DNA of 64,000 nucleotides from Rhizobiaceae bacterium (GCA_017644005.1 JAEPMJ010000002.1:558001-622000), one strand, 5' to 3'. Shown: positions 49,367 through 64,000, counted from the first letter of the stretch. Translations and numbers: made by a program. Notes: generated from the sequence alone by a model not told the origin.

Positions 49367-49727
49367 GATCGCAGATTTCCGCAACCGCCGCCGCTGAGCC
49401 GCGGGACAGCGCCAGAAGTATCCGCTGGCCTTCCAAACGCACCGGAAACGTAGCCGTGCCGCCCTCGTCCGCGCCCTGCGCCCTGCCCGTTTCCAGCGAG
49501 ATGATCCAATTATGCAGAGGGCAGGTGACACAGTCATCGTGAACGATGCCCTGGCTGAGCGGCCCTGCCCTGTGGGGACACTTGTCCTCGATGGCGAACA
49601 CCCTGTCGTCGGCCGTGCGGAACACGGCGATGGTCGTATCCCCGTTTCTGACGCAGCGTGCGCCGCGCTGCGGAATGTCGTGCAGCGTGCCGACCGACAC
49701 CCATTCCTGTCCGGTCATCTTCATCAC
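49359..49727 (-). CDS. nirD: Nitrite reductase small subunit (Rieske-type)
   Basis: 'FAIEDKCPHRAGPLSQGIVHDDCVTCPLHNWIISLETG'. Confidence 0.93.
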   Translation of the reverse strand: MMKMTGQEWVSVGTLHDIPQRGARCVRNGDTTIAVFRTADDRVFAIEDKCPHRAGPLSQGIVHDDCVTCPLHNWIISLETGRAQGADEGGTATFPVRLEGQRILLALSRGSAAAVAEICDHG

Positions 49728-52168
49728 TCAGCCGCCTCCAGCGGAAGTGTCGCCATCGGCCTGAACTCGTGCTTGTCCTTGCCGGATGCGCGCTCCGACC
49801 AGGGATCGACCTGAGCGAATGTCTGGGAAAAGACGAAGCGGTCGTAATAGGTCTTCCGCCTGTCCGCATCATCCATGATCTGGCGGCGGACCTCGTCGTA
49901 ACCGACGCGCTTCGCCCATTTGTAGATGCGCTCCAGATAATGGCCTTGTTCGCGATACATCTGGACGAGCGCAACGATGTGCTCCAGGGCCTCGTCCTCG
50001 GTCCTTACGAAGCCGAGCTTTTCGGTGCCTTTGATGTCCAGACCCGCCGCCCCGGCAAAATGGATCTCAAAGCCGGATTCCACGCAGATGACACCGACAT
50101 CCTTGCAGGTGGCTTCGGCGCAGTTGCGCGGGCATCCCGAGACCGCCATCTTCACCTTGGCCGGCGTCCACGATCCCCACATGAATTTTTCGATGCGAAT
50201 GCCGAGGCCCGTCGAATCCTGCGTGCCGAAACGGCACCAGTCGGAACCCACACAGGTTTTCACGGTGCGCAGACCCTTGGCATAGGCATGCCCGGACACG
50301 AAGCCCGCCTTGCCGAGCTCGGCCCAGACCGCAGGCAGGTCCTGCTTGCGGATGCCCAGCATGTCGATCCTTTGTCCTCCGGTGACCTTCACCGCCGGGA
50401 TATCGAACCTGTCGACCACATCGGCGATCGCCCGCAGTTCGGCGGACGACGTCACTCCGCCCCACATGCGCGGTATCACCGAATAGGTGCCGTCCTTCTG
50501 GATGTTGGCGTGCACGCGTTCATTGATGAAGCGCGACTGGTAATCGTCGGCGTATTCGTCGGGCCAGTCGCTGACGAGATAGTAGTTGAGTGCCGGGCGG
50601 CATTTGGCGCAGCCGCACGAGGTCTTCCATTCCAGTTCCTGCATGACGGCGGGTATGGTCTTCAGCCCCTTCGCCCTGATCAGCCGCCGGACGTCGTCAT
50701 GTCCGAAATCCGTGCAACCGCACACCGGTGTTACGGCAGTCGGATTATAGGTATCGCCGAGCGTCAGGGAGAGAAGCTGTTCCACGAGCCCCGTGCAGGT
50801 TCCGCAGGAGGCGGACGCCTTGGTGTGAGCGCGGACATCGTCCAGCGACGCCAACCCCTTCCCGGTGATCGCGCCAGTGATCGTACCCTTGCATACGCCG
50901 TTGCAGCCGCAGATTTCCGCATCATCCGGCAAGGCTGCAACGGCCGCAATAGGGTCCAGTTGGGCACCTCCCTGATAGGCCTGCCCGAAGATCAGCGTTT
51001 CACGCATATCGGAAACGTCCGTGCCCTTCTTGAGCATGTCGAAGAACCAGCCGCCATCCGAAGTCTCGCCGTAGAGCACCGCACCCAAGATCCGGTTGTC
51101 CTTCAGGACGAGGCGCTTGTAGACGCCCGCGCTGGCATCGCGCAGAACGATCTCTTCCCGGTCATCGGCCTCGGCGAAATCGCCTGCGGAATAGAGGCTG
51201 ACACCGGTCACCTTGAGCTGGGTGGCCGTTTCGACCGGCCGGAAGGCCGCGTCCTCTTTGACAAGCGTTCTGGCCGCGACCTTCGCCATATCGTAGAGCG
51301 GCGCGACTAGGCCGTAGCAGATGCCCTCATGCTCCACGCATTCGCCAATGGCGAGAATGTCAGGATCCGAGGACGTCATGTGATCGTTGACGACGATGCC
51401 TCGTTCCACATGCAGGCCGGCATCGGTTGCAATGCGCGTTTCGGGACGGATGCCGACCGCCATGACCACAATATCGGCCGCATAGATCGTGCCATCGTCG
51501 AGAAGCACCGCTTCCGCCCGATCATCGCCGAGGATCGCCTTGGTCTGCGCTTCGGTGTGAATCCTGATGCCACGATTCTCGAACTCCTTCTTGAGGAGAT
51601 ATCCCGCGGCGGGATCGAGCTGGCGGTCCATGAGATGCCCCATGAGGTGCAGCACCACCACCTCCATGCCGCGGCCGCGCAACGCGGCGGCCGCCTCCAG
51701 CCCGAGAAGGCCGCCGCCAATAACTACTGCCTTGGCGTTCGGCTTTTCCGCCGCTGCAACCATGGCGTTGACGTCGTCAAGGTCGCGGAAGGCCATCACG
51801 CCGGGCAAGTCCCTGCCCGCGACGGGAATGATAAAGGGCGCGGAGCCGGTGGCGATCACCAGCTTGTCGTAACGGGTTTCTCCCCTGGCGGTCAGGACCA
51901 CCTTGCGCTTGCGGTCGATCCTGGTGACCGTCTCGCCGAAGCGGCAGGTCACGTGGTTTGCCACATACCAGTCTTCGTCGTGGGTGACGATCTGCTCGAA
52001 CGCCTTGTCCCCGGCCAGCACGGGCGAAAGCATGATGCGATTGTAATTTCCGCGTGGCTCCGCGCCGAAGAGGGTCACGTCGAAGGCATTCGGCTCGGCC
52101 TCGAAAAGCTGCTCGAGCATGCGGCCCGAGGCCATGCCAGCCCCAACCACGACAAGTTTTTCAGTCAT
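49724..52168 (-). CDS. nirB: Nitrite reductase (NAD(P)H) large subunit
   Basis: 'KLVVVGAGMASGRMLEQLFE', 'CGCNGVCKGTITGAI', siroheme 'GSDWCRFGTQDS...VSGCPRNCAEATCKDVGVI'. Confidence 0.95.
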   Translation of the reverse strand: MTEKLVVVGAGMASGRMLEQLFEAEPNAFDVTLFGAEPRGNYNRIMLSPVLAGDKAFEQIVTHDEDWYVANHVTCRFGETVTRIDRKRKVVLTARGETRYDKLVIATGSAPFIIPVAGRDLPGVMAFRDLDDVNAMVAAAEKPNAKAVVIGGGLLGLEAAAALRGRGMEVVVLHLMGHLMDRQLDPAAGYLLKKEFENRGIRIHTEAQTKAILGDDRAEAVLLDDGTIYAADIVVMAVGIRPETRIATDAGLHVERGIVVNDHMTSSDPDILAIGECVEHEGICYGLVAPLYDMAKVAARTLVKEDAAFRPVETATQLKVTGVSLYSAGDFAEADDREEIVLRDASAGVYKRLVLKDNRILGAVLYGETSDGGWFFDMLKKGTDVSDMRETLIFGQAYQGGAQLDPIAAVAALPDDAEICGCNGVCKGTITGAITGKGLASLDDVRAHTKASASCGTCTGLVEQLLSLTLGDTYNPTAVTPVCGCTDFGHDDVRRLIRAKGLKTIPAVMQELEWKTSCGCAKCRPALNYYLVSDWPDEYADDYQSRFINERVHANIQKDGTYSVIPRMWGGVTSSAELRAIADVVDRFDIPAVKVTGGQRIDMLGIRKQDLPAVWAELGKAGFVSGHAYAKGLRTVKTCVGSDWCRFGTQDSTGLGIRIEKFMWGSWTPAKVKMAVSGCPRNCAEATCKDVGVICVESGFEIHFAGAAGLDIKGTEKLGFVRTEDEALEHIVALVQMYREQGHYLERIYKWAKRVGYDEVRRQIMDDADRRKTYYDRFVFSQTFAQVDPWSERASGKDKHEFRPMATLPLEAAE

Positions 52169-52199
52169 GATGTTCTTTCCGTTTTCTCAGAACGTGCTT

Positions 52200-53477
52200 T
52201 CAGGCCGGCTGCGGGGCGGCCCGGCGTTCCATCCTGCGGATGGCAAGGTGCATCCAGACGATGGCGAAGGCGACGATGACGAACAGAGCCATGAAACAGC
52301 TCGTCCAGAGGCCGGTGACATCGTTCAGGTAGCCGAACAGCAGCGGCAGGATGAAACCTCCGAGACCGCCAATCATTCCGACCATGCCGCCGACCGCGCC
52401 CACATTGTCGGGGTAGTAGACCGGGATGTGCTTGTAGACGGCGGCCTTGCCGAGGCTCATGAAGAAGCCAAGAACGAAGACCAGCGCTATGAAGGCCCAC
52501 GGGCCCACCGCGAACTGGAAGGTCATGGGGCCTTCGATGCCCCGCACGACATAATCGGCCGCCGGAAGCGACAGGATGAACGTGCATGCTGCGGAAGCCG
52601 CGAAGGTCCAGTACATCACTGCGCGCGCGCCGGCCCTGTCGGAGAGCGCGCCCCCATAGGCACGGAATACCGAGGCGGGCAGCGAATAGGCAGCGCCGAT
52701 GAGGCCGGCTGTCTTGATATCGAAGCCATAGACTCCGATCACATAGCGCGGCAGCCACAGGGCGAGCGCCACGAAGGCACCGAAGACGAAGAAGTAGTAG
52801 AGAGAGAAGCGCCAGACCTGAACGTTCTTCAGCGGCTCGAACTCGGAAGCGAAGCTGCGGCGCCTGATCTGCCCCGTGCGCTGAGCCCGGATCACCGGAT
52901 CGTCGCTCGTGGTGAACCAGAACACCAGCGCTGTAATCGCGAGGGCCGCTGCCCACAGTTGCGCGACGGTCTCCCAGCCCCAGGCTACCAACACGAACGG
53001 TGCAACGAACTTCGTCAGCGCCGCGCCGACGTTTCCGACACCGAAAATGCCGAGAGCGGTGCCCTGCTTTTCGGTGGGAAAAAAGCGAGAGACATAAGCC
53101 ACGCCCACTGCAAAGGACCCACCGGCCACGCCCACGCCAAGTGCTGCAAGCAGCACCGTCGCATAGCTGTCCGCGAGAGACAGGAGAAGGGTCGCGAACG
53201 CTGCCGTCAGCATCGTTGCCGTGTAGACGAGACGCCCGCCATAGCGGTCGGTCCAGATCCCGAGGATCATGCGCACGAGCGATCCTGTCAGGATCGGTGT
53301 GCCGACGAGCAGCCCGAACTGGGTTTCGCTCAGTCCCAGGTCCTCCTTGAGGCGGATACCGATAATGGAAAAGATCGTCCACACGGCGAAGCAGACCGTG
53401 AAGGCAATGGTGGACATGGTGAGCGCGCGGCGCGATGTCGTGTCTTGCGTCGGCGTGGCTGGCTGCAACGTGATCAT
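52200..53477 (-). CDS. narK: Nitrate/nitrite MFS transporter
   Basis: 'FAVWTIFSIIGIRLKEDLGLSETQFGLLVGTPILTGSLVRMILGIWTDRYGGRLVY'; start refined from the 446-aa track ORF, which would extend into the leader. Confidence 0.88.
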   Translation of the reverse strand: MITLQPATPTQDTTSRRALTMSTIAFTVCFAVWTIFSIIGIRLKEDLGLSETQFGLLVGTPILTGSLVRMILGIWTDRYGGRLVYTATMLTAAFATLLLSLADSYATVLLAALGVGVAGGSFAVGVAYVSRFFPTEKQGTALGIFGVGNVGAALTKFVAPFVLVAWGWETVAQLWAAALAITALVFWFTTSDDPVIRAQRTGQIRRRSFASEFEPLKNVQVWRFSLYYFFVFGAFVALALWLPRYVIGVYGFDIKTAGLIGAAYSLPASVFRAYGGALSDRAGARAVMYWTFAASAACTFILSLPAADYVVRGIEGPMTFQFAVGPWAFIALVFVLGFFMSLGKAAVYKHIPVYYPDNVGAVGGMVGMIGGLGGFILPLLFGYLNDVTGLWTSCFMALFVIVAFAIVWMHLAIRRMERRAAPQPA

Positions 53478-53538
53478 CGGTTCTTTCAATCCAACTGCGT
53501 GAGCCTCAGGAGAGGCATGGCTTCGATAGAGAGGACAC

Positions 53539-53607
53539 AAAAGAAAAAGGCTGCCCGACTGTCCGTCGCTCCCCGCTAAGCGGGTGCGAACCGACCGTCT
53601 GGCAGCC
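53539..53607 (-). terminator. Intrinsic terminator/attenuator in narK-nirBD-nasA leader
   Basis: Minus strand GGCTGCC...GGCAGCC outer stem, inner TCGC-A-CCCGC-TTA-GCGGG-GA-GCGA, followed by TTTTTCTTTT. Confidence 0.85.
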
Positions 53608-53634
53608 TTGCCTCAAGCGCCCATCGTTGGACGC
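53601..53634 (-). promoter_or_regulatory. ANTAR-type two-hexaloop leader RNA element (NasT antitermination target)
   Basis: P1 GCGTCC-AACGAT-GGGCGC (53617-53634), 4-nt linker TTGA, P2 GGC-AAGGCT-GCC (53601-53612); both hexaloops have A1 and G4; P2 overlaps the terminator 5' arm. Confidence 0.78.
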
Positions 53635-53675
53635 GAACTTATCTTAGGTGTCCCCTCTGGACCCGTTTACTGCAA

Positions 53676-53691
53676 TGCATCATCCATGCCA
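53676..53691 (-). promoter_or_regulatory. Candidate sigma54 promoter TGGCATGGATGATGCA
   Basis: GG-N10-GC spacing with TGGCA-TG at -24 and TGC at -12, about 40-60 nt upstream of the two-hexaloop element on the same strand. Confidence 0.65.
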
Positions 53692-53858
53692 GTTCCGCCG
53701 CAAACAGATTTTTCTCTTTAATTTTAAATAGTTAGAAAGCGCCATAAGCAGAATAGCCTTCGCAGGTGCAGCACGACCCTGTCTAATTCAGCGTCTCGAT
53801 GCATTCGAAATGGGCAGCCAGGGGAATATGCCTGAACTAAAATCCGGCTTCCGAAAGC

Positions 53859-55088
53859 TCAGCGAAGGGCAGGTCGCTGGCTGGCGATATAGGCGTCGAG
53901 ATGTGCGGGATCGAAGACGGCACCATCGAAAAAGCCATCCGGGCCAAGGACAAGCTGTCCGGCTGAAACGCCGACGGGGGTGGGCACGGCCAGCGCCCCT
54001 TCAACCTTCATGCTGGCTGAGGGCAGCGGCACGCCGAGCGGCTTGAGCGCGGCGCGGTAGATGTCGGGCCGGAACGACCGCCGTGCCGTCTCCGCGTTTT
54101 CGGCACTGTGCGACACTTGCCCCCAGCGCACCATCTGGGAGTAGAACCAGAGCGCATGGCTCTGCCAGGGAAAGATCGCCGCCTTCTGCGCGGGAACGAA
54201 AAAATCCTGAAACCGCCGCGTCCCGCCACCGGTTTCCAGCTCTCCATCGAGCGCCGCGCGCAGCAGCGCGGCAGGCTGGTTGAGATAGGCCGGGGCCGAC
54301 AGGAGGTCGGCTAGCTCGTCGTGGTTGCCAACTGCGCCGCACCAGAGGGAGGCGCGGTGCAGCGCCCGCAGAAGCCTCTCGAGCAGCGAGCCGTGCTCCC
54401 CGGCCCAGTCCTCGCGCACACCCAGAACCTTTTCGGGGCTCGACCGCCAGATCGCCGCCTTTACCGTGACGATATGCGCAAGGCCGGCGGCCACAGCCAC
54501 GCTGTTCCACGGTTCACCCACACAAAAGCCGTCGATGCGACCGGCGGCCATTGCATCCGACGTCAAGGGAGGTGGAACAATGACGATCTCAACATCTCGC
54601 TCCGGATCGATGCCGCAGGCAGCAAGCCAGTAGCGAAGTTCGAAATTGTGCCCCGAATGGGGATGGACAACGCCGAAGCGAAGCGTGTCGTCGCCTTTTC
54701 TGTGCCGGCGCTCGATCACCGCGCGCAGGGCGGCGCCGGCCGCCGCCGGATCGTCGGGGCCCGTCGCCCCCTCCCCGGCCATCGCCGCCCACAGCTCTTG
54801 GCTGACGGTGACCGCATTGCCGCCAAGGCCGAGCGACATCGGCGCAAGCAATCCGAGCCGCATGGGAGTCAAGCCGAGATTGGCGGCGATGGGCATTGGC
54901 GCCAGCATATGCGCCACTTCGAAATGTCCGACGGCTATGCGGTCGCGAATGTTCGCCCAGGACGTCTCACGCACGAGCGTCAGTGCAATGCCTTCTTCCT
55001 CCGCAAATCCCTTCTCACGCGCGGCAACAAGAATGGCACTGTCGAGGAGCGGCAGAAAGCCGGCCGTTAGGGGAACGCTGGCGCTCAT
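53859..55088 (-). CDS. nasS: NrtA/CmpA-like nitrate-binding protein lacking a signal peptide; NasS-type nitrate sensor
   Basis: 'PLTAGFLPLLDSAILVAAREKGFAEEEGIALTLVRETSWANIRDRIAVGHFEVAHMLAPMP'; adjacent to ANTAR protein. Confidence 0.85.
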   Translation of the reverse strand: MSASVPLTAGFLPLLDSAILVAAREKGFAEEEGIALTLVRETSWANIRDRIAVGHFEVAHMLAPMPIAANLGLTPMRLGLLAPMSLGLGGNAVTVSQELWAAMAGEGATGPDDPAAAGAALRAVIERRHRKGDDTLRFGVVHPHSGHNFELRYWLAACGIDPERDVEIVIVPPPLTSDAMAAGRIDGFCVGEPWNSVAVAAGLAHIVTVKAAIWRSSPEKVLGVREDWAGEHGSLLERLLRALHRASLWCGAVGNHDELADLLSAPAYLNQPAALLRAALDGELETGGGTRRFQDFFVPAQKAAIFPWQSHALWFYSQMVRWGQVSHSAENAETARRSFRPDIYRAALKPLGVPLPSASMKVEGALAVPTPVGVSAGQLVLGPDGFFDGAVFDPAHLDAYIASQRPALR

Positions 55089-55090
55089 GC

Positions 55091-55684
55091 CTATCCTCCT
55101 CCAAGGAGTTTGGATGCGGTGATCAGGCTATGCGCGATCTCGGAAATCTTGCGGTTTTGGTCCATCGCCGCGCGTCGCATGCGGCGGTAGGCCTCGTCCT
55201 CCGAAAGCCCCTGGGAGCGCATGAGGATCCCCTTGGCCTTTTCGACGATCTTGCGGGATTCGAGCTCGTTGCGGGCATCCTCCAGCTCGCGCTCCATGCG
55301 GGAGAATGCGTTGAACCGGCTGATAGCCATGTCGAGGATCGGCTTCACCCTTTCCTGCCTCAGCCCGTCGACCACATAGGCCGACACGCCGGCATCCACC
55401 GCCGCCTCGATAGCGGCTTGATCGGACCGGTCGACGAACATCGCAATCGGGCGTTTCACGGCGCGCGAGAGACTGAACATGCTTTCGAGCATGTCGCGAT
55501 TGGGATTTTCCAGGTCGATGACGATGACATCCGGCTGCGCGTCACGGACGCGACTGGCGATGGCGTGTACGTCATGAACCAGTGTCACGTGATCATGCCC
55601 GGCCTCACGAAGTCCAGCCTCGATGATCGAGGCGCGGATCGTGTTTTCGTCAATGACCAGGATAGATAGCTGCTTGGCCGTCAT
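55091..55684 (-). CDS. nasT: NasT-type response-regulator-like ANTAR antiterminator
   Basis: Receiver-like N-terminus plus ANTAR 'SRKIVEKAKGILMRSQGLSEDEAYRRMRRAAMDQNRKISEIAHSLITA'; start refined. Confidence 0.92.
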   Translation of the reverse strand: MTAKQLSILVIDENTIRASIIEAGLREAGHDHVTLVHDVHAIASRVRDAQPDVIVIDLENPNRDMLESMFSLSRAVKRPIAMFVDRSDQAAIEAAVDAGVSAYVVDGLRQERVKPILDMAISRFNAFSRMERELEDARNELESRKIVEKAKGILMRSQGLSEDEAYRRMRRAAMDQNRKISEIAHSLITASKLLGGG

Positions 55685-56078
55685 GCTCCATTTTTCACGT
55701 ACGCGCTCGTATTGTGCAATGCAAGATGCGAAGGACGCCACTTTCGGGCCACCCGGCCTGCCATCGAATTTCGGCTGCAGGAGAGATGCTGGCCATTTCA
55801 GCACCGAGACATTCCAGGCGCCGGGCGGAGGGCCGTTCTCCCAGCTGAAGCAGCTCTACTTGGTTCGCTCTGATCCCGGGTGCTTTGAAGTTTCGGTCCA
55901 TCTCCTCTGCCGCAAACTGATTGCGGTTCGGTCGAGGGGAAAGCACGACCGCTCTAGCCTGCGGGAGCACGCAACCGGGGATGTCAGCAGGCCTTTTCCA
56001 GGCTGGTCAGCGCTCCCCAGGCTACCTCCGAGGCCACCTGATGAGAGCACGACTCCACGCCTGTCTCCATGACACCGA

Positions 56079-56094
56079 ATTGACTTTTGTCAAT
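56079..56094. promoter_or_regulatory. Candidate SorC operator ATTGAC-TTTT-GTCAAT
   Basis: 6-bp inverted repeat upstream of the SorC gene; contains TTTGTCAATCA, shared with the mtnK/ABC divergent promoter. Confidence 0.55.
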
Positions 56095-56125
56095 CACCAT
56101 GAATAATGTCGAGAGGAGGCGCGGA

Positions 56126-57091
56126 ATGGCTTATCGTTCCACAGACCAGATCATACACAAGGCCGCCTGGCTATATTATACGCACGGCCTGCGTCAGGAC
56201 GAGGTGGCGCAGCGGCTGAACATTTCGCGTGCTTCGGTCGCCCTTTATCTGCGCAAGGCCCGAGAGGCCGGCATCGTCAACATCTCCACCTCCACGCATC
56301 TTTTCAGCGGCGAGCGCCTTGCCCGTCAGATGGAGGATGCCTTTGATCTGGAGACCGTTTGGCTCGTGGGCGAGAATTCCCTTTCACCCTCGCCTGCCGC
56401 CGAAATCCCGACGCTGGCTGCCAATGTCTTTCTCGAAATGGTCGAGAACGGCAATCAGGTCTGCGTCGCCTGGGGCCGCACCGTCTACGACATCGCCGAC
56501 GCCATGAACTATGCCGACCGCGAAGGCGTCACTGTCGTGGAAATGTGCGGCAACCTCGGCTCGCCCTATGCCTATCGCCCCGACCAGTGCACGATGGAGA
56601 TCGCCCGGCGGCTCAACGCCAAGGGGCTCAACTTCTACGCACCGCTGGTGTTGAGCACCGAGGAACTGGCCCACGCCCTGCGCGAAGAGCCTGTCATCCG
56701 CGAACAGCTCGACGGTATCAGCGACTGCGATCTGGCCCTCTTCACGGTCGGCGCGCTTGATACCGACAGCCATGTCATCAAATGTGGCGCCCTTAGCATC
56801 GAGGAACTGGAGAAGCTCAAGGCGATGGGGGCCACCGGCGTTATCGCCGGCCAGATCATCACCGCCGATGGCAGGTTGCTCGACTGCGATTACAACAGGC
56901 GCATGATCTCGGCAGATTTCGATGCCATCCGCGCCATTCCGAAACGCCTGATGGTGGTGCAGGAGGACGAAAAACTCGAACCTCTGAAGGCCGCCATCGC
57001 CGGGCGTTTCTTCACCCATCTGGTCACCACCTCCTCCATGGCGGCCGCGCTTTTGAAGCACCACGCCGCCAGTGAATCGACGCCGGCCTGA
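56126..57091 (+). CDS. SorC/DeoR-type sugar-binding transcriptional regulator
   Basis: 'HKAAWLYYTHGLRQDEVAQRLNISRASVALYLRKAREAGIVNI'; start refined with GAGGAGG RBS. Confidence 0.92.
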   Translation: MAYRSTDQIIHKAAWLYYTHGLRQDEVAQRLNISRASVALYLRKAREAGIVNISTSTHLFSGERLARQMEDAFDLETVWLVGENSLSPSPAAEIPTLAANVFLEMVENGNQVCVAWGRTVYDIADAMNYADREGVTVVEMCGNLGSPYAYRPDQCTMEIARRLNAKGLNFYAPLVLSTEELAHALREEPVIREQLDGISDCDLALFTVGALDTDSHVIKCGALSIEELEKLKAMGATGVIAGQIITADGRLLDCDYNRRMISADFDAIRAIPKRLMVVQEDEKLEPLKAAIAGRFFTHLVTTSSMAAALLKHHAASESTPA

Positions 57092-57136
57092 TCTCTCGCC
57101 GGCAAGCGCAACTCTTCAGGACAGTACAGGACCGAC

Positions 57137-59191
57137 ATGCAGAACCTCTGGAAAGACAGCGAAGCCGAAAAGCTCGTCGAGCATTACGCTGCAAAGGGCA
57201 TCGACCGCGATCTGGCGCTGCGCGTCTACACGACCCGACTTCTCGGCGGCGAGCCGCGTCTTGTCCTTCATGGCGGGGGCAACACCTCGCTGAAAAGCAG
57301 GGCCGCCGACATTCTGGGCCGCGAATATGATGTGCTGTGCGTCAAGGGTAGTGGCTGGGACATGGGTGTAATCGAGCCCCAAGGCCTGCCCGCCGTGAAG
57401 ATGGACGCACTCCTCGCCGCCCGCAAACTCGATGCCCTGGCCGATGAAGACATGGTCGCCATGCAGCGCGCCAATCTCATCGATCCGGGTTCCCCCAACC
57501 CCTCCATAGAAACCCTGCTGCATGCCTTCCTGCCCCACAAATTCGTCGATCACACCCATTCCACCGCGATCCTCGCGCTGGTCGATCAGGAAGACTCCGA
57601 AGCCCTCTGCAAGAAGGTCTTCGGCGATCGGCTGGGCTTCGTGCCCTATATCAAGCCGGGCTTCGACCTCGCCAAGGAAGCTGCCGACATCTACGACAGA
57701 GATCCCTCCGTAGAGGGCCTGATCCTCGACAAGCACGGCATCTTCACCTTCGCCGAAGACGCCAGGACTGCCTACGATCTCATGATCGAGTTCGTCACGA
57801 TGGCCGAAGATTACGTGGCCGAGAACGGTAAGGCGCCGTTCAATCCGGTCACGCTGCCGAAGGAACTCGCCACCCCGTCCGAGATCATGCCCTATCTGCG
57901 CGGTGCCATCGCTATCGACGAGGGTGAGGGCAAGTATGGCCGCATGGTCTGCGACTTCCGCACCTCGCCCAAAATACTCGACTATGTGAACGCCGACACG
58001 GCTGAAGAACTCGCCACCCGCGGCGTTTCCACGCCGGACCTCTCGATCCGCATCAAGACTGGCCCCATGGTCCTGCCCGCTCCCGAAGCCGGCAAGCTTG
58101 ATGACTATGGCAAGCTGATCCGCGAAAAGGTCGGCGAGTTCTCCGCCCGCTACAAGGAGTATTTCGCGACCAACAACGCCGCCGACGATGTCGAGCGCAC
58201 CATGCTCGATACCATGCCACGCCTGACGCTGGTGCGCGGTCTCGGCCTGATCGGCCATGGCCGCAGCATGAAGGAGGCCAAGATCGCCGCCGATGTGGGC
58301 GAGATGCTGGTGGAAGCCGTGACCGGCGCCGAGGCCATCGGCTCCTTCCATCCGCTGGCGCTCTCCGACCTTTTTGAGCTTGAATACTGGTCTCTCGAAC
58401 AGGCCAAGCTTGCGTCCAACAAACCCAAGCCGCTCTCCGGCCAGGTCACGCTGGTGACCGGTGGTGCCGGCGCCATAGGAGCCGCCACGGCAAAGCTCTT
58501 CGCCGCTCAGGGCTCCCATGTCGTCGTCGTTGACATGCATGCCGACAAGGCGGACGAGGTCGCACAGAAAATCGGCAACGCCGCCATCGGTATCGGTGCC
58601 GACGTGACGGATCCTGCCGCCGTCCGCGCTGCCTTTGACAGGGCGCGCGATGTGTTCGGCGGTGTCGACATCGTCGTCTCCAATGCGGGCGCTGCCTGGC
58701 AAGGCAAGATCGGCGAACTGGAGGATGCCACGCTTCGCCGGAGTTTTGAGCTCAACTTCTTCGCCCATCAGAGCGTCGCGCAGAATGCGATCCGGCTGTT
58801 CAAACAGCAGGGCACGGGCGGCGTGCTTCTCTTCAACGCCTCCAAGCAGGCGGTCAATCCGGGTGCGAATTTCGGTGCATATGGTCTGCCGAAGGCAGCC
58901 ACGCTGTTCCTGTCGCGGCAATATGCGCTGGACTACGGCTCGATCGGCGTACGCTCCAACGCCGTCAACGCCGACCGCATCCGCTCCGGCCTTCTCACCA
59001 ACGAGATGATTGCCAACCGCTCCACCGCGCGCGGCCTGTCGGAGAAGGACTATATGGGTGGCAACCTGCTCGGCCTTGAAGTGCGCGCCGAGGACGTGGC
59101 GCAGGCATTTCTGAACCACGCCCTTGCCGAGCGCACCACGGCGGACGTGACCACTGTCGACGGCGGCAACATCGCGGCGGCTCTGCGGTAG
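57137..59191 (+). CDS. Bifunctional class II aldolase/short-chain dehydrogenase (RhaD-like fusion)
   Basis: N-terminal aldolase 'LVLHGGGNTSLKS', 'HTHSTAILAL', 'LILDKHGIFTF'; C-terminal SDR 'VTLVTGGAGAIGAATAKLFAAQG', 'YGLPK'. Confidence 0.9.
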   Translation: MQNLWKDSEAEKLVEHYAAKGIDRDLALRVYTTRLLGGEPRLVLHGGGNTSLKSRAADILGREYDVLCVKGSGWDMGVIEPQGLPAVKMDALLAARKLDALADEDMVAMQRANLIDPGSPNPSIETLLHAFLPHKFVDHTHSTAILALVDQEDSEALCKKVFGDRLGFVPYIKPGFDLAKEAADIYDRDPSVEGLILDKHGIFTFAEDARTAYDLMIEFVTMAEDYVAENGKAPFNPVTLPKELATPSEIMPYLRGAIAIDEGEGKYGRMVCDFRTSPKILDYVNADTAEELATRGVSTPDLSIRIKTGPMVLPAPEAGKLDDYGKLIREKVGEFSARYKEYFATNNAADDVERTMLDTMPRLTLVRGLGLIGHGRSMKEAKIAADVGEMLVEAVTGAEAIGSFHPLALSDLFELEYWSLEQAKLASNKPKPLSGQVTLVTGGAGAIGAATAKLFAAQGSHVVVVDMHADKADEVAQKIGNAAIGIGADVTDPAAVRAAFDRARDVFGGVDIVVSNAGAAWQGKIGELEDATLRRSFELNFFAHQSVAQNAIRLFKQQGTGGVLLFNASKQAVNPGANFGAYGLPKAATLFLSRQYALDYGSIGVRSNAVNADRIRSGLLTNEMIANRSTARGLSEKDYMGGNLLGLEVRAEDVAQAFLNHALAERTTADVTTVDGGNIAAALR

Positions 59192-59224
59192 GGGCTGTAA
59201 TCGCCCGCCGGTCAGCACAAATGC

Positions 59225-59250
59225 AAAGGGCGGCCCGAGAGCCGCCCTTT
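59225..59250. terminator. Bidirectional terminator AAAGGGCGGC-CCGAGA-GCCGCCCTTT
   Basis: Perfect 10-bp inverted repeat between convergent aldolase/SDR and substrate-binding genes. Confidence 0.85.
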
Positions 59251-59272
59251 CCAGTTCAAAACCCCTTGCGCC

Positions 59273-60328
59273 TCAATCGCGCGGCGGCAACGGCATCCAG
59301 GCTGGAACGGCCACATCCGCATGGGCGAACTGCGGCATCTTGGCCGAGAGATCGTCCATGTTCTTGATGTCGCCGTCGTTGAGCGCCTGCTGCGTGATCA
59401 GGGTCGGCGGAACGATGACGCTCTTGCCCGGCTCCTCACCGGCCAGAAGCATGGCGAGCGCACGCACCGAAACCTCGCCCACAACGGCAGGGTTGGTCGC
59501 AGCCGTCGCCACCCAGGCGCTGCCTGGCTCGCGCATGGCCGAGATGTCGGCGGTGGACACGTCGGCCGAGTAGATCTTGACGCTGTCCGACAGGCCCGCC
59601 TCGTCCACGGCAATCTTCACGCCCTTGGCGAATTCGTCATAGGGCGCGAACATGACCTGAATGTCCGGGTTTGCCGTAACCACCGAGCGCGCCTGATTGG
59701 CAACCGAATTGGCAATCGGATTGTCGAGCGTGCCGAACTGCGCCACTTCCTCGATGCCAGGATATTTTTCCTTGAACGCGCGCCACGTCTCGTCGCGGCG
59801 GTCGAGCGGCGCGATGCCGGCCACATAGACATAGCCCGCCTTCCACTCTTCGCCATTGTCCTTGATCGCCTGTTCCAGCGCCAGCCGCGCAAGGTCCCGG
59901 TCGGACTGCTCGATCTGCGGGATCGCATCATTCTCGACATTCACGTCGAAGGCCACGACCTTGATGCCCGCATCGACGGCGCGCTGGGCCGCTTCCTTCA
60001 TGGATTCCGTCAGTCCGTGCTGGATGATAATGCCATCAACGCCGAGCGCGATCGCCTGATCCACCATGTCGGCCTGAAGGGCGGCGTCCTGGCGGCTGTC
60101 CAGCACGCGCAGGTTCACGCCCAGCGCCTCGGCCTGCTTCTCCACGCCCGAAAGGTAGGCCTGGAAGAAGTCGCCGGTGGAAAGATAGCGCACCAGCGCG
60201 ATTTCCACGTCACCCGGATTGTCGAAAGGCGCAGGCTTGTCCTGCGCACCGGCGGCCGCCGGCAGGAGCATGGTGGCCCCGGCGAGCGCCGCGGCCATCT
60301 TGCCCAGAAGTCTGCGTGAAATTTCCAT
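59273..60328 (-). CDS. Sugar ABC transporter substrate-binding protein
   Basis: Signal peptide; 'VEIALVRYLSTGDFFQAYLSGVEKQAEALGVNLRVLDSRQDAALQADMVDQAIALGVDGIIIQHG'. Confidence 0.9.
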   Translation of the reverse strand: MEISRRLLGKMAAALAGATMLLPAAAGAQDKPAPFDNPGDVEIALVRYLSTGDFFQAYLSGVEKQAEALGVNLRVLDSRQDAALQADMVDQAIALGVDGIIIQHGLTESMKEAAQRAVDAGIKVVAFDVNVENDAIPQIEQSDRDLARLALEQAIKDNGEEWKAGYVYVAGIAPLDRRDETWRAFKEKYPGIEEVAQFGTLDNPIANSVANQARSVVTANPDIQVMFAPYDEFAKGVKIAVDEAGLSDSVKIYSADVSTADISAMREPGSAWVATAATNPAVVGEVSVRALAMLLAGEEPGKSVIVPPTLITQQALNDGDIKNMDDLSAKMPQFAHADVAVPAWMPLPPRD

Positions 60329-60386
60329 GTTTTCCTCCACTCCGTTACATTTGTTGCAGTCGAAATATGTTGCGGCGGCCGAGCGC

Positions 60387-61454
60387 CTACCTTGCATTCC
60401 TCGCCAGAAGCGCAAAGGTGAAGATCAGCGCGATGACGAGCACCGCCCCCTTGACGAAATCCTGTGTGTAATAGGGCACGTTCATCATGGTCAGCCCCTG
60501 CAGGAGCACACCCACGAACAGCGCACCGATGGCCGTGCCGAATGCGTTCGGCTTGGCGGCGCCCAGCACCGCAAAACCGATCAGTGCCGCCGCCACCGCA
60601 TCCAGAAGCAGATTGTTGCCCGATGCGATGTCGCCGCGCCCGAGGCGCGCCGCCAGAAGAATGCCGCCAATGGAGGCGAAGACGCCCGAAATCACATAGG
60701 CCCAGATACGGTAGGCCTTGACCGGCGCACCCGCAAACTCAGCGGCCCGTGCATTGGAACCCGCCGCATACATCATACGGCCGAACCGCGTATATTCGAG
60801 AAAGAACCAGATCAGGATCGCCAGCACGATCAGCACCACCACCGAGGCCGGCACGAGGTTCTCTATAAAGAGATCAAACCGGTGCCGTCCGAGCGCCAGA
60901 AAGGCCTGGCTGAACGTGCCTTCGGCGGTCGAGCCGTCGGGCAGCGTCATGCCTGTGGCGATGGAGCGCCCTTCGGTCGGTATGCGTTGCAGGCCGATCA
61001 GAAGGAACATCATGCCAAGCGTCGCCAGAAGGTCGGGCACGCGCATGTAGCAGATGATGAGACCGTTGATCAGCCCGACTAGCGCGCCGATGGCGAGACA
61101 CGCCAGAACCGCAACGAGCGCATTCTGCTCCAGCACCACCATTACGTAGGCCGCCGCCATCATCGAGCTTGTGGCGATGGAGCCGATGGAAAGGTCGAAT
61201 CCCCCCACCACCAGCGTCGCCGTCACGCCAAGCGCCAGAATGCCGGTGATGGACACCGACTGCAGGATGAAAACCGCCGCCTGCGGCGAGGTGAAGCCGC
61301 GAGTAGCAAGCGAAAAGAACACGATCAGCCCAACGAGCAGGCTAAGAAAGCCATAGCGGATTGCCAGCTCGCGCATTGAAAGTCTGTCTTTCGGCCGCGC
61401 ATCAGCCTTTGCTTCCACCGCACTCTCCCGTGCCGTCTGGCTGTTCATTCTCAA
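60387..61454 (-). CDS. Sugar ABC transporter permease (RbsC type)
   Basis: 'VGGFDLSIGSIATSSMMAAAYVMV', 'GLINGLIICYMRVPDLLATLGMMFLLIGLQRI'. Confidence 0.92.
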   Translation of the reverse strand: MRMNSQTARESAVEAKADARPKDRLSMRELAIRYGFLSLLVGLIVFFSLATRGFTSPQAAVFILQSVSITGILALGVTATLVVGGFDLSIGSIATSSMMAAAYVMVVLEQNALVAVLACLAIGALVGLINGLIICYMRVPDLLATLGMMFLLIGLQRIPTEGRSIATGMTLPDGSTAEGTFSQAFLALGRHRFDLFIENLVPASVVVLIVLAILIWFFLEYTRFGRMMYAAGSNARAAEFAGAPVKAYRIWAYVISGVFASIGGILLAARLGRGDIASGNNLLLDAVAAALIGFAVLGAAKPNAFGTAIGALFVGVLLQGLTMMNVPYYTQDFVKGAVLVIALIFTFALLARNAR

Positions 61455-62969
61455 TCAGCTCCCTGCCACTTCCAAACGCTGCCCGGCGACTTCCGCCAGA
61501 AGCCGGTCCATATCCACATCGGCATTGCGGTGCTCGCCGACAATAGTGTTCTCCGACATGACGAGAATGCGATCGGCCGTTTCCAGAGCCTCATCGAGTT
61601 CGGTCAGAAAAATCAGTGTCGCCCGCTCGCTGGCGCTCTCACGCAGCTTGGCCGCAATGTCGTGGCGGGCTGCAATGTCGACGCCCTGAAACGGTTCGTC
61701 GAGAATGAGCAGCCGCGATTTCTGAGTGAGCCAGCGCGCCACTGTCACCTTTTGCTGGTTGCCACCCGAAAGTGTTGCCAGATCGTCGCGCTCGGAGCGG
61801 CAGACGATTTTGAGGTCGGCGATCTGGGCGCGCGCCGTCTGGCGTTCGCTTCGCCGCCGCATCACGCCCGCATTCGCGAAACGCGGCAGGAAGGGCAGGC
61901 TCATATTCTCATAGATGTTGAATTCCGGCACGATGCCGGTGGAGGCGCGGTCCTTGGCAACGAGAAAGACACCATCCCTGATCGCCCTTGCCGGTGTCTT
62001 CGGAGCATAGGGTTTGCCATCGAGCTCCATCGTGCCCGAAAGCGGCGCATGAATGCCGAACAGGGTCTCGGCAAGCTGCGTCTTGCCCACCCCCACAAGC
62101 CCGGTCACGGCTACGATCTCGCCAGCCCCCAGATCCATGGAGATTGGATTCGCGCCCCGCGCGATCCGCAGGTCGCGCACCGAAAACACCGGGGTTCCAG
62201 CCGCACGGACGTCAATGCTGTGGCGGCCGAGATTTTGCCCCAGCATGGCGTTGACCGCGCCTTCATAATCGAGCGGCTTTTCATCGAACTGGCCGACAAT
62301 CGCCCCGTCGCGAAGGCTCACGATCCTGTCGGCCAGACGGCGGATATCCGACATGCGATGCGAGATGTAGAGAACGGCGACGCCCCGCGCCTTCAACCGG
62401 TCGATCAGCGCAAAAAGCCGCTCGGCCTCATTGCTCGAAAGTGAGGAGGTCGGTTCGTCGAGGATCATCACCTGGGGCTCATGCGACATGGCTCGGGCAA
62501 TCGCCACCATCTGCCGGTCGGCGAGTGAAAGGTCGGTCACCTCCGCGCCGAGGTCGATCCCGAGCCCCATGCGCTCGGCCACTTCCCGAGCCTCGCGCCG
62601 CACCCTGCGCGGATTGAAGAAAATGCCGCTGCCTGCGCCGTTCAGACGGTCGAGCACCAGGTTGCTGGCCACGTCGAGCGCACCCACGACACCGTCATTG
62701 ATGTTCTGATGAACCGTCACCACGCCGGCGCGCATCGCCTCTGCCGGGGTGGCAGGAGAGAAAGGCTTGTCCCCCAGCATCATCACGCCGCGGTCGGCGC
62801 GGTGAACACCGCTCATGACCTTGACGAGCGTCGACTTGCCGGCGCCATTGGCGCCCATCAGAACGGACACCTCGCCAGCGCGCAGGTCGAGCCCCACACC
62901 ACGCAACACGGCATTGGGTCCGAACGCTTTGGTCAGGCCGGCAATTCGAAAAACGGCGGTGTCGCCCAT
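61455..62969 (-). CDS. Sugar ABC transporter ATP-binding protein (tandem ABC domains, RbsA type)
   Basis: 'LMGANGAGKSTLVKVMSGVHRADRGV', 'LSLADRQMVAIARAMSHEPQVMILDEPTSSLS', 'LSGGNQQKVTVARWL'; start refined. Confidence 0.93.
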   Translation of the reverse strand: MGDTAVFRIAGLTKAFGPNAVLRGVGLDLRAGEVSVLMGANGAGKSTLVKVMSGVHRADRGVMMLGDKPFSPATPAEAMRAGVVTVHQNINDGVVGALDVASNLVLDRLNGAGSGIFFNPRRVRREAREVAERMGLGIDLGAEVTDLSLADRQMVAIARAMSHEPQVMILDEPTSSLSSNEAERLFALIDRLKARGVAVLYISHRMSDIRRLADRIVSLRDGAIVGQFDEKPLDYEGAVNAMLGQNLGRHSIDVRAAGTPVFSVRDLRIARGANPISMDLGAGEIVAVTGLVGVGKTQLAETLFGIHAPLSGTMELDGKPYAPKTPARAIRDGVFLVAKDRASTGIVPEFNIYENMSLPFLPRFANAGVMRRRSERQTARAQIADLKIVCRSERDDLATLSGGNQQKVTVARWLTQKSRLLILDEPFQGVDIAARHDIAAKLRESASERATLIFLTELDEALETADRILVMSENTIVGEHRNADVDMDRLLAEVAGQRLEVAGS

Positions 62970-63008
62970 GCTCTCCTCCCAATGTAACGCTAACAGGTAA
63001 CAAGCATA

Positions 63009-63025
63009 TGTCAACATGATTGACA
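63009..63025. promoter_or_regulatory. Candidate SorC operator TGTCAA-CATGA-TTGACA
   Basis: Inverted repeat in the ABC/mtnK divergent promoter; 63017-63027 TGATTGACAAA is the exact reverse complement of TTTGTCAATCA at 56086-56096. Confidence 0.55.
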
Positions 63026-63259
63026 AATGACAGTGCATTGGTAGCGTGGTGCCAGAACTGACAGCATGAGAGAGTGGTGATTACCGAACTCGGCACGTGC
63101 CTTTCACGCTCCCGGTTCGGGAGGAACGGGACGTAAGATGAACAGGCTGGACTTGCGCTTCTTCTCACCTCCGGGAGGGAAAATGATGCGGGAACACGGG
63201 CGGATGCAGGATGCGCACCATCACACAAATGCTCGGTGCGAATGGGAGGAGACAGAAAG

Positions 63260-64000
63260 ATGAAAGAGAACGCCTTCGAGCCCCTCACGGTGGAAACCTT
63301 GCCGGATCGCCTGGGCAGCATTCCCGAGATTGCCAAGCGTCTCGGCGGCGCGCCCACTGCATGGAAGGTCCGCGAAGTGGGCGATGGCAATCTCAACCTT
63401 GTCTTCATCGCGCAGGGTGAAGCGCAAACGCTCATCATCAAGCAGGCACTGCCTTATGTCCGCCTCGTTGGCGATAGCTGGCCCCTGCCTCTGAAGCGCT
63501 CCTTCTTCGAATATCACGCCCTTATACGGCAGGAACAGCGAGCCCCGGGCTCCGTGCCTGCGGTCTACTATTTCGATGAGACGCAGGCACTGATCGCAAT
63601 GGAGTTTCTGTCGCCTCACATCATTCTGCGCCGCGCTCTCATCGAGGGGCAGGAACTGCCGAAGATCGGCAGGGATCTCGGTCTCTTCATGGCCCGTACC
63701 CTCTTCCGCGGGTCCGACCTTTCCATGAAGGCAGCGGACCGCAAGGCCGATCTCGCGCTCTTTGCCGACAATGTCGACCTTTGCGACATCACGGAAAATC
63801 TCGTCTTTTCCGATCCCTATTTCGAAGCGCCGATGAACCGGCACACCCCGGGTCTCGACGCGCTGGTGAAAGAGCTGCGCGCCGACCGTGACCTGAAGGT
63901 CGCCGCACAGCGTATGAAACATCTCTTTGCTTCAAAGGCCGAGACCATGGTGCATGGCGATCTGCATTCAGGCTCCGTCATGGTCACGAAGGAAGACACC
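63260..64000 (+). CDS. mtnK: S-methyl-5-thioribose kinase, partial (truncated by window end)
   Basis: 'EVGDGNLNLVFIAQGEAQTLIIKQALPYVRLVGDSWPLPLKRSFFEYHAL', 'MVHGDLHSGSVM'; RBS GGGAGGAGA. Confidence 0.9.
   Translation, partial: MKENAFEPLTVETLPDRLGSIPEIAKRLGGAPTAWKVREVGDGNLNLVFIAQGEAQTLIIKQALPYVRLVGDSWPLPLKRSFFEYHALIRQEQRAPGSVPAVYYFDETQALIAMEFLSPHIILRRALIEGQELPKIGRDLGLFMARTLFRGSDLSMKAADRKADLALFADNVDLCDITENLVFSDPYFEAPMNRHTPGLDALVKELRADRDLKVAAQRMKHLFASKAETMVHGDLHSGSVMVTKEDT

Follow-up and report, generated by a model that had tools for sequence, protein, structure and literature searches.

What does a class II aldolase fused to a short-chain dehydrogenase (SDR) do when it is encoded beside mtnK, the gene for 5-methylthioribose (MTR) kinase? 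The question is raised by positions 56,079 to 64,000 of a 64,000-nucleotide stretch of DNA from Rhizobiaceae bacterium (GCA_017644005.1 JAEPMJ010000002.1:558001-622000; hereafter, the window), where such a fusion lies with a SorC-type regulator, an ATP-binding cassette (ABC) importer, and mtnK. The original prediction for this locus was a compact dihydroxyacetone phosphate (DHAP) shunt for MTR or 5-deoxypentoses, a recently described pathway that disposes of S-adenosylmethionine by-products made by all cells. We found this reading to be right in substance: the cluster very probably constitutes a complete and regulated unit for the catabolism of external MTR, and probably also of 5-deoxyribose. 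The DHAP shunt and all of the enzyme classes involved are already known; the novelty lies in the fused aldolase-dehydrogenase within the shunt and in its occurrence with an importer of the MTR type.

MtnK, MtnA, and the fusion as the probable route for MTR

All of the genes named in the original prediction are present and intact, and mtnA, which had been proposed as the gene to look for just past position 64000, is found directly downstream of mtnK, its start overlapping the mtnK end by four bases (Table 1). MtnK and MtnA both score above their curated cut-offs, which supplies the kinase and the isomerase of a DHAP shunt. We also searched the rest of the genome, which is 93% complete, for named families of related pathways. 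No MtnP above cut-off, no MtnB, no MtnD (acireductone dioxygenase), and no RuBisCO-like protein (MtnW) was found. Rhamnose isomerase (RhaI), already noted as missing beside the aldolase, had no match anywhere in the genome to TIGR02629, the rhizobial-type isomerase model and the only one used. Neither the universal methionine salvage pathway nor the isoprenoid shunt can be recognized in this genome. Since none of these proteins was found, the fusion is the sole recognized outlet for the MtnA product, and free MTR or 5-deoxyribose, whether imported or made by a nucleosidase, would pass only via this MtnK and MtnA. Below cut-off, the strongest matches to MtnP and MtnN appear from their sequences to be purine nucleoside phosphorylases and one protein resembling methylthioadenosine/S-adenosylhomocysteine nucleosidases; the latter (L191, 554-1201) could serve as an internal supplier of MTR.

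The fusion belongs to a clade separate from the rhamnose enzymes

The fusion is 684 amino acids long, with a class II aldolase match (PF00596, 82.6 bits) at residues 31 to 226 and an SDR match (PF00106) at residues 436 to 619, within an SDR part that spans residues ~436 to 680. It scores 1,094.8 bits against NF006192 (cut-off, 639), a model named just "bifunctional aldolase/short-chain dehydrogenase" to which NCBIfam assigns no function, and its nearest named relative, in Nitratireductor sp. B36, is 96% identical. The aldolase had been described as RhaD-like; the class II aldolase/SDR fusion is real, but the protein falls outside the RhaD_aldol-ADH model, since its score of 489.8 bits against the rhamnose model TIGR02632 is below the cut-off of 567.75.

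In an alignment of 127 relatives, residues E125, H139, H141, H200, D466, N540, S569, Y582, and K586 are nearly invariant in the clade of the fusion, whereas most proteins of the type of the rhamnose enzyme RhaEW (rhamnulose-1-phosphate aldolase plus lactaldehyde dehydrogenase) have Asp at position 125 and Leu at position 540. By analogy with RhaD and FucA, we take H139, H141, and H200 to be metal ligands and E125 to be the catalytic acid, and by analogy with other SDRs, N540, S569, Y582, and K586 presumably form the tetrad, with D466 as the NAD-preferring acid. Thus, the class II aldolase of a DHAP shunt is present at the cluster with its His and Glu residues conserved, as a fused NF006192 protein instead of the stand-alone FucA-like (Ald2/DrdA) type. 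A stand-alone aldolase is common to all described cases and is not required by the chemistry.

The fusion is linked to mtn genes across the Hyphomicrobiales

We sampled 199 genomes evenly across the order Hyphomicrobiales. MtnK scored above cut-off in 44 of them and a fusion of this clade was present in ~27, and the two genes were within ~12 kb of each other in at least 11 of the 199 (binomial P, ~2e-20), so their clustering is not due to chance. We also examined 127 fusion-bearing loci, 107 of them from the clade of the window's fusion (at least 45% identity) and 20 from the RhaEW group (33 to 37% identical to the fusion). Of the 107 fusion-clade loci, 80 have mtnA, mtnK, or mtnP close by, and the only one with rhaI (L095) also carries a RhaEW-type copy. 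In the RhaEW group, rhaI was nearby in 15 of 20 loci and mtn genes in none. The split between mtn and rha contexts has Fisher P values of 1e-10 and 2e-14, which ignore relatedness among loci whose named members lean to Mesorhizobium. In a 67-row tree, long branches with full support separate the fusion clade from the RhaEW group, and two changes suffice between the mtn and rha contexts. Phylogeny, which had been suggested as a check on the aldolase/SDR, places it in a clade that is linked to mtn and not to rha. None of the originally stated refuting conditions that could be checked spoke against the prediction.

The seven genes are syntenic across the Hyphomicrobiales. A gene order identical to that of the window is the most frequent arrangement, seen in 43 loci, and more loci have it with small rearrangements or additions. 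Two replacements are informative: MtnP takes the place of MtnK in MtnP-apt-mtnA-fusion operons of other families, and at one locus (L100), where the importer, mtnK, mtnA, and SorC genes lie together, the slot of the fusion is taken by a class II aldolase that is stand-alone and FucA-like. In four MtnP-type operons from one genus (L075, L076, L077, and L084), a gene for an MgtC/DUF4010 membrane protein (Pfam match from the L075 copy) lies between mtnA and the fusion.

Several observations weigh against a DHAP-shunt role for the fusion. No mtn gene is in view in 27 of the 107 fusion-clade loci, some of which are at contig ends, and the importer with mtnK and mtnA is also found without the fusion (L096, L104, and L109). 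At L086, L087, and L089, fusion copies that are 48 to 49% identical to that of the window have a SorC regulator and an FGGY (xylulokinase-like) kinase as neighbors. Judged by these neighbors, the clade is not single-substrate, and this part of it serves another sugar. Because the genome is incomplete, the absences listed above are also not absolute. Separately, fusions that are 62 to 70% identical, with no mtn gene within 10 kb, occur in Kaistia, Methylocapsa, a Rhizobiales isolate, and Paramagnetospirillum (L169, L180, L149, and L188).

The importer has an MTR-type binding protein

The importer was originally called Rbs type, and we confirmed a complete one, with a binding protein, a double-ABC ATPase, and one permease gene. 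By sequence, the closest solved relative of the binding protein is 4RY8 (234 bits; E value, 2.5e-68), with the next best at 138 bits. When the binding protein was modeled from 35 orthologues (predicted local distance difference test score, 88), the same structure ranked first in a Foldseek search (39% identity; E value, 1.8e-32). The Protein Data Bank describes 4RY8 as a 5-methylthioribose transporter solute binding protein; a text search of the literature found no mention of it. The likeness extends over the whole mature protein at 39% identity and is the top match by both sequence and fold, although 4RY8 (Tlet_1677 of Thermotoga lettingae) comes from a distant phylum. Binding proteins that are 67 to 98% identical to that of the window accompany mtnK-mtnA across the sampled families. 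Because 4RY8 is its closest solved relative, MTR or a similar 5-substituted 5-deoxyribose is favored as the substrate, and we predict that this protein binds MTR or 5-deoxypentoses.

A shared palindrome is consistent with one SorC regulon

The SorC open reading frame as listed (56087-57091, plus strand) begins at a TTG codon that falls within an operator-like palindrome, so we prefer the ATG at 56126 as the start. The palindrome, a perfect TTGAC-N4-GTCAA, ends 32 bases before this ATG and is the sole exact copy in the window; of 73 loci, 61 have it upstream of SorC with no more than one mismatch, compared to 0.8% in shuffles. The importer/mtnK promoter contains half-site pairs of the TTGAC/GTCAA motif (GTCAACATGATTGACAAATGACA), and imperfect paired copies with at most two mismatches are seen at this promoter in 64 of 66 loci, compared to ~8% in shuffles, with GTCAA-N5-TTGAC in 57 of the 66. 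The palindrome shared by both operons fits a single SorC regulon; given the relatedness of the loci and the use of mononucleotide shuffles, this support is moderate.

A proposed DHAP shunt with a built-in dehydrogenase

In the pathway that we propose, the ABC importer would take up the free sugar, MtnK would phosphorylate it at C1, and MtnA would isomerize the product to a 5-substituted 5-deoxyribulose-1-phosphate. Cleavage of this compound by the aldolase half of the fusion would then yield DHAP and a short aldehyde, namely 2-(methylthio)acetaldehyde from MTR or acetaldehyde from 5-deoxyribose. The NAD-type SDR half, as part of the same polypeptide, would convert the reactive aldehyde to either an alcohol or an acid. 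The probable effector of SorC is a phosphorylated intermediate, and this regulator probably controls both operons via the shared palindrome.

The DHAP shunt and 5-deoxyribose salvage have been described with stand-alone aldolases (PMC12632272, PMC10986504, PMC6079011, and PMC5893883), and the dehydrogenase for methylthioacetaldehyde has been presumed to be an unnamed alcohol dehydrogenase (PMC5893883). The cluster resembles the shunts of Escherichia coli ATCC 25922 (mtnK-mtnA-ald2-permease) and of Rhodospirillum rubrum and Rhodopseudomonas palustris in having a kinase or phosphorylase, MtnA, and a class II aldolase that yields DHAP and an aldehyde, and it shares with the E. coli cluster a gene for transport (PMC12632272 and PMC5893883). 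In contrast to those systems, the aldolase here is SDR fused and of the RhaEW build, not Ald2, transport is by an ABC importer with an MTR-type binding protein, and SorC stands in place of MtnR. The drdK-drdI-drdA cluster of Bacillus thuringiensis carries out the same three chemical steps, in some clusters with sugar transporters (PMC6079011), but DrdA is a stand-alone, FucA-like aldolase without a fused dehydrogenase. RhaEW proteins (Chloroflexus, Bacillus subtilis YuxG, and alphaproteobacteria) have the same domain order, aldolase and then SDR (PMC3870299). In vitro, RhaEW cleaves a ketose-1-phosphate and oxidizes the released aldehyde with NAD+, and the aldolase product was seen only when NAD+ was present (PMC3870299).

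We found no paper that joins a fused aldolase-dehydrogenase with mtnK or mtnA, although North and colleagues may have mentioned such a combination in their 2020 survey. If our reading is correct, the fusion names the aldehyde-handling enzyme of the DHAP shunt, and the widespread NCBIfam protein NF006192 gains a testable role. A dedicated importer would also imply that rhizobia and their relatives take up MTR that other organisms release and use it for carbon and perhaps sulfur.

Other readings of the cluster

One rival reading is that the fusion is RhaEW, lying beside mtnK incidentally. Among characterized relatives that share the two-domain build, RhaEW is the nearest (PMC3870299), and 490 bits against TIGR02632 is in its favor, but that score is below the cut-off, no rhaI was recovered by the TIGR02629 search, and the fusion is in a separate clade across long branches. 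The RhaEW relatives in the order differ from the fusion at E125 and N540, and RhaEW-type paralogues adjoin rhaI in the same genomes as the fusion (G105 and G103). On the rhaI search, the clade, and the gene context, we rejected this reading as very unlikely. We think it similarly improbable that mtnK-mtnA feed universal methionine salvage while the aldolase-SDR belongs to something else: both genes are common to that pathway, but the genome search found no MtnB, MtnD, or RuBisCO-like (MtnW) protein, and the reading was rejected on the lack of MtnB and MtnD.

Lsr systems, which take up the signal autoinducer-2, pair a SorC regulator with an Rbs-type importer, and models for LsrR and LsrA/B/C/D match the window's proteins weakly. 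However, every match is far below its Lsr cut-off; the SorC protein itself scores 156 bits against DeoR (Bacillus) and 103 bits against LsrR, both below cut-off. The kinase is of the MTRK type and not an FGGY kinase, the binding protein scores 36 bits with LsrB (6dsp) compared to 234 bits with 4RY8, and neither mtnA nor this aldolase is an Lsr part. With only weak model matches, uptake of autoinducer-2 was rejected as hardly credible. A narrower variant of the DHAP shunt, mainly for 5-deoxyribose (from 5'-deoxyadenosine) or some other ribose substituted at C5 rather than for MTR, is doubtful but a good deal more plausible. B. thuringiensis DrdK accepts both 5-deoxyribose and MTR (PMC6079011) and the E. 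coli shunt handles both (PMC10986504), but the nearest solved binding protein, 4RY8, is annotated for MTR.

RuBisCO-like protein and split transketolase in sister loci

The most surprising by-product of this analysis is a RuBisCO-like protein encoded with a split transketolase pair beside importer-mtnK-mtnA in 15 or 16 loci, with or without the fusion (L104, 2101-5269; L073, 15014-18121; L090, L091, L092, L096, L145, L150, L154, L155, L157-L159, and L162-L164), in Rhizobium, Ensifer, Devosia, and other hosts. By search, this set is absent from the window's genome. The nearest solved relative of the RuBisCO-like protein is 3QFW (246 bits), and we take this protein to be of the R. palustris DeepYkr type; the transketolase pair is nearest to the Carboxydothermus split transketolase 6YAJ. 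In R. palustris, the DeepYkr type isomerizes 5-methylthioribulose-1-phosphate, and a cupin then acts (PMC5893883), so a transketolase in place of the cupin beside importer-mtnK-mtnA suggests an undescribed branch. It is conceivable, though we consider it unlikely as a whole, that the fusion is a dedicated DHAP-shunt enzyme with the so far unassigned aldehyde-handling dehydrogenase built into the aldolase and that, in the sister loci, the same importer-mtnK-mtnA unit drives this second branch. There, the DeepYkr-like protein would isomerize the ribulose-1-phosphate to a 1-substituted xylulose-5-phosphate, which the split transketolase, replacing the cupin methylsulfurylase, would split into glyceraldehyde-3-phosphate and an aldehyde unit of two carbons.

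Layout of the locus

The SorC and fusion genes are on the plus strand, and the importer genes, on the minus strand, diverge from mtnK (Table 1). The contig ends at 66755, 2,755 bases beyond the window, and no further convincing gene was found in the stretch from mtnA to that end.

Table 1. Features of the cluster, numbered from the first base of the window
Feature	Coordinates	Strand	Evidence or remark
Candidate SorC operator, perfect palindrome TTGACTTTTGTCAA	56080..56093	.	Ahead of the regulator-aldolase operon
SorC/DeoR-type sugar-phosphate-responsive regulator	56126..57091	+	PF04198, 162 bits; start from ribosome-binding site and palindrome position
Fused class II aldolase-short-chain dehydrogenase (predicted DHAP-shunt aldolase and aldehyde oxidoreductase)	57137..59191	+	NF006192
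Periplasmic binding protein, predicted 5-methylthioribose/5-deoxypentose binder	59273..60331	-	Best PDB match, 4RY8
Importer permease	60387..61454	-	PF02653, 142 bits; RbsC type, 167 bits
Importer ATPase, two ABC domains	61455..62975	-	PF00005 in two stretches; AraG/RbsA type
Divergent promoter region, importer/mtnKA	62976..63259	.	Half-site pairs of SorC-type motif at ~63010-63033
mtnK, 5-methylthioribose kinase	63260..64525 (window ends at 64000)	+	TIGR01767, 498 bits (cut-off, 275)
mtnA	64522..65631 (past window)		Downstream of mtnK; TIGR00512, 434 bits (cut-off, 279)

Adjoining the cluster at 49724-55804 is an apparently unrelated set of genes that, as read from sequence, is for nitrate assimilation, with a NirB-like nitrite reductase, a nitrate transporter of the major facilitator superfamily, an NrtA-like protein, and an ANTAR regulator (NasT-like).

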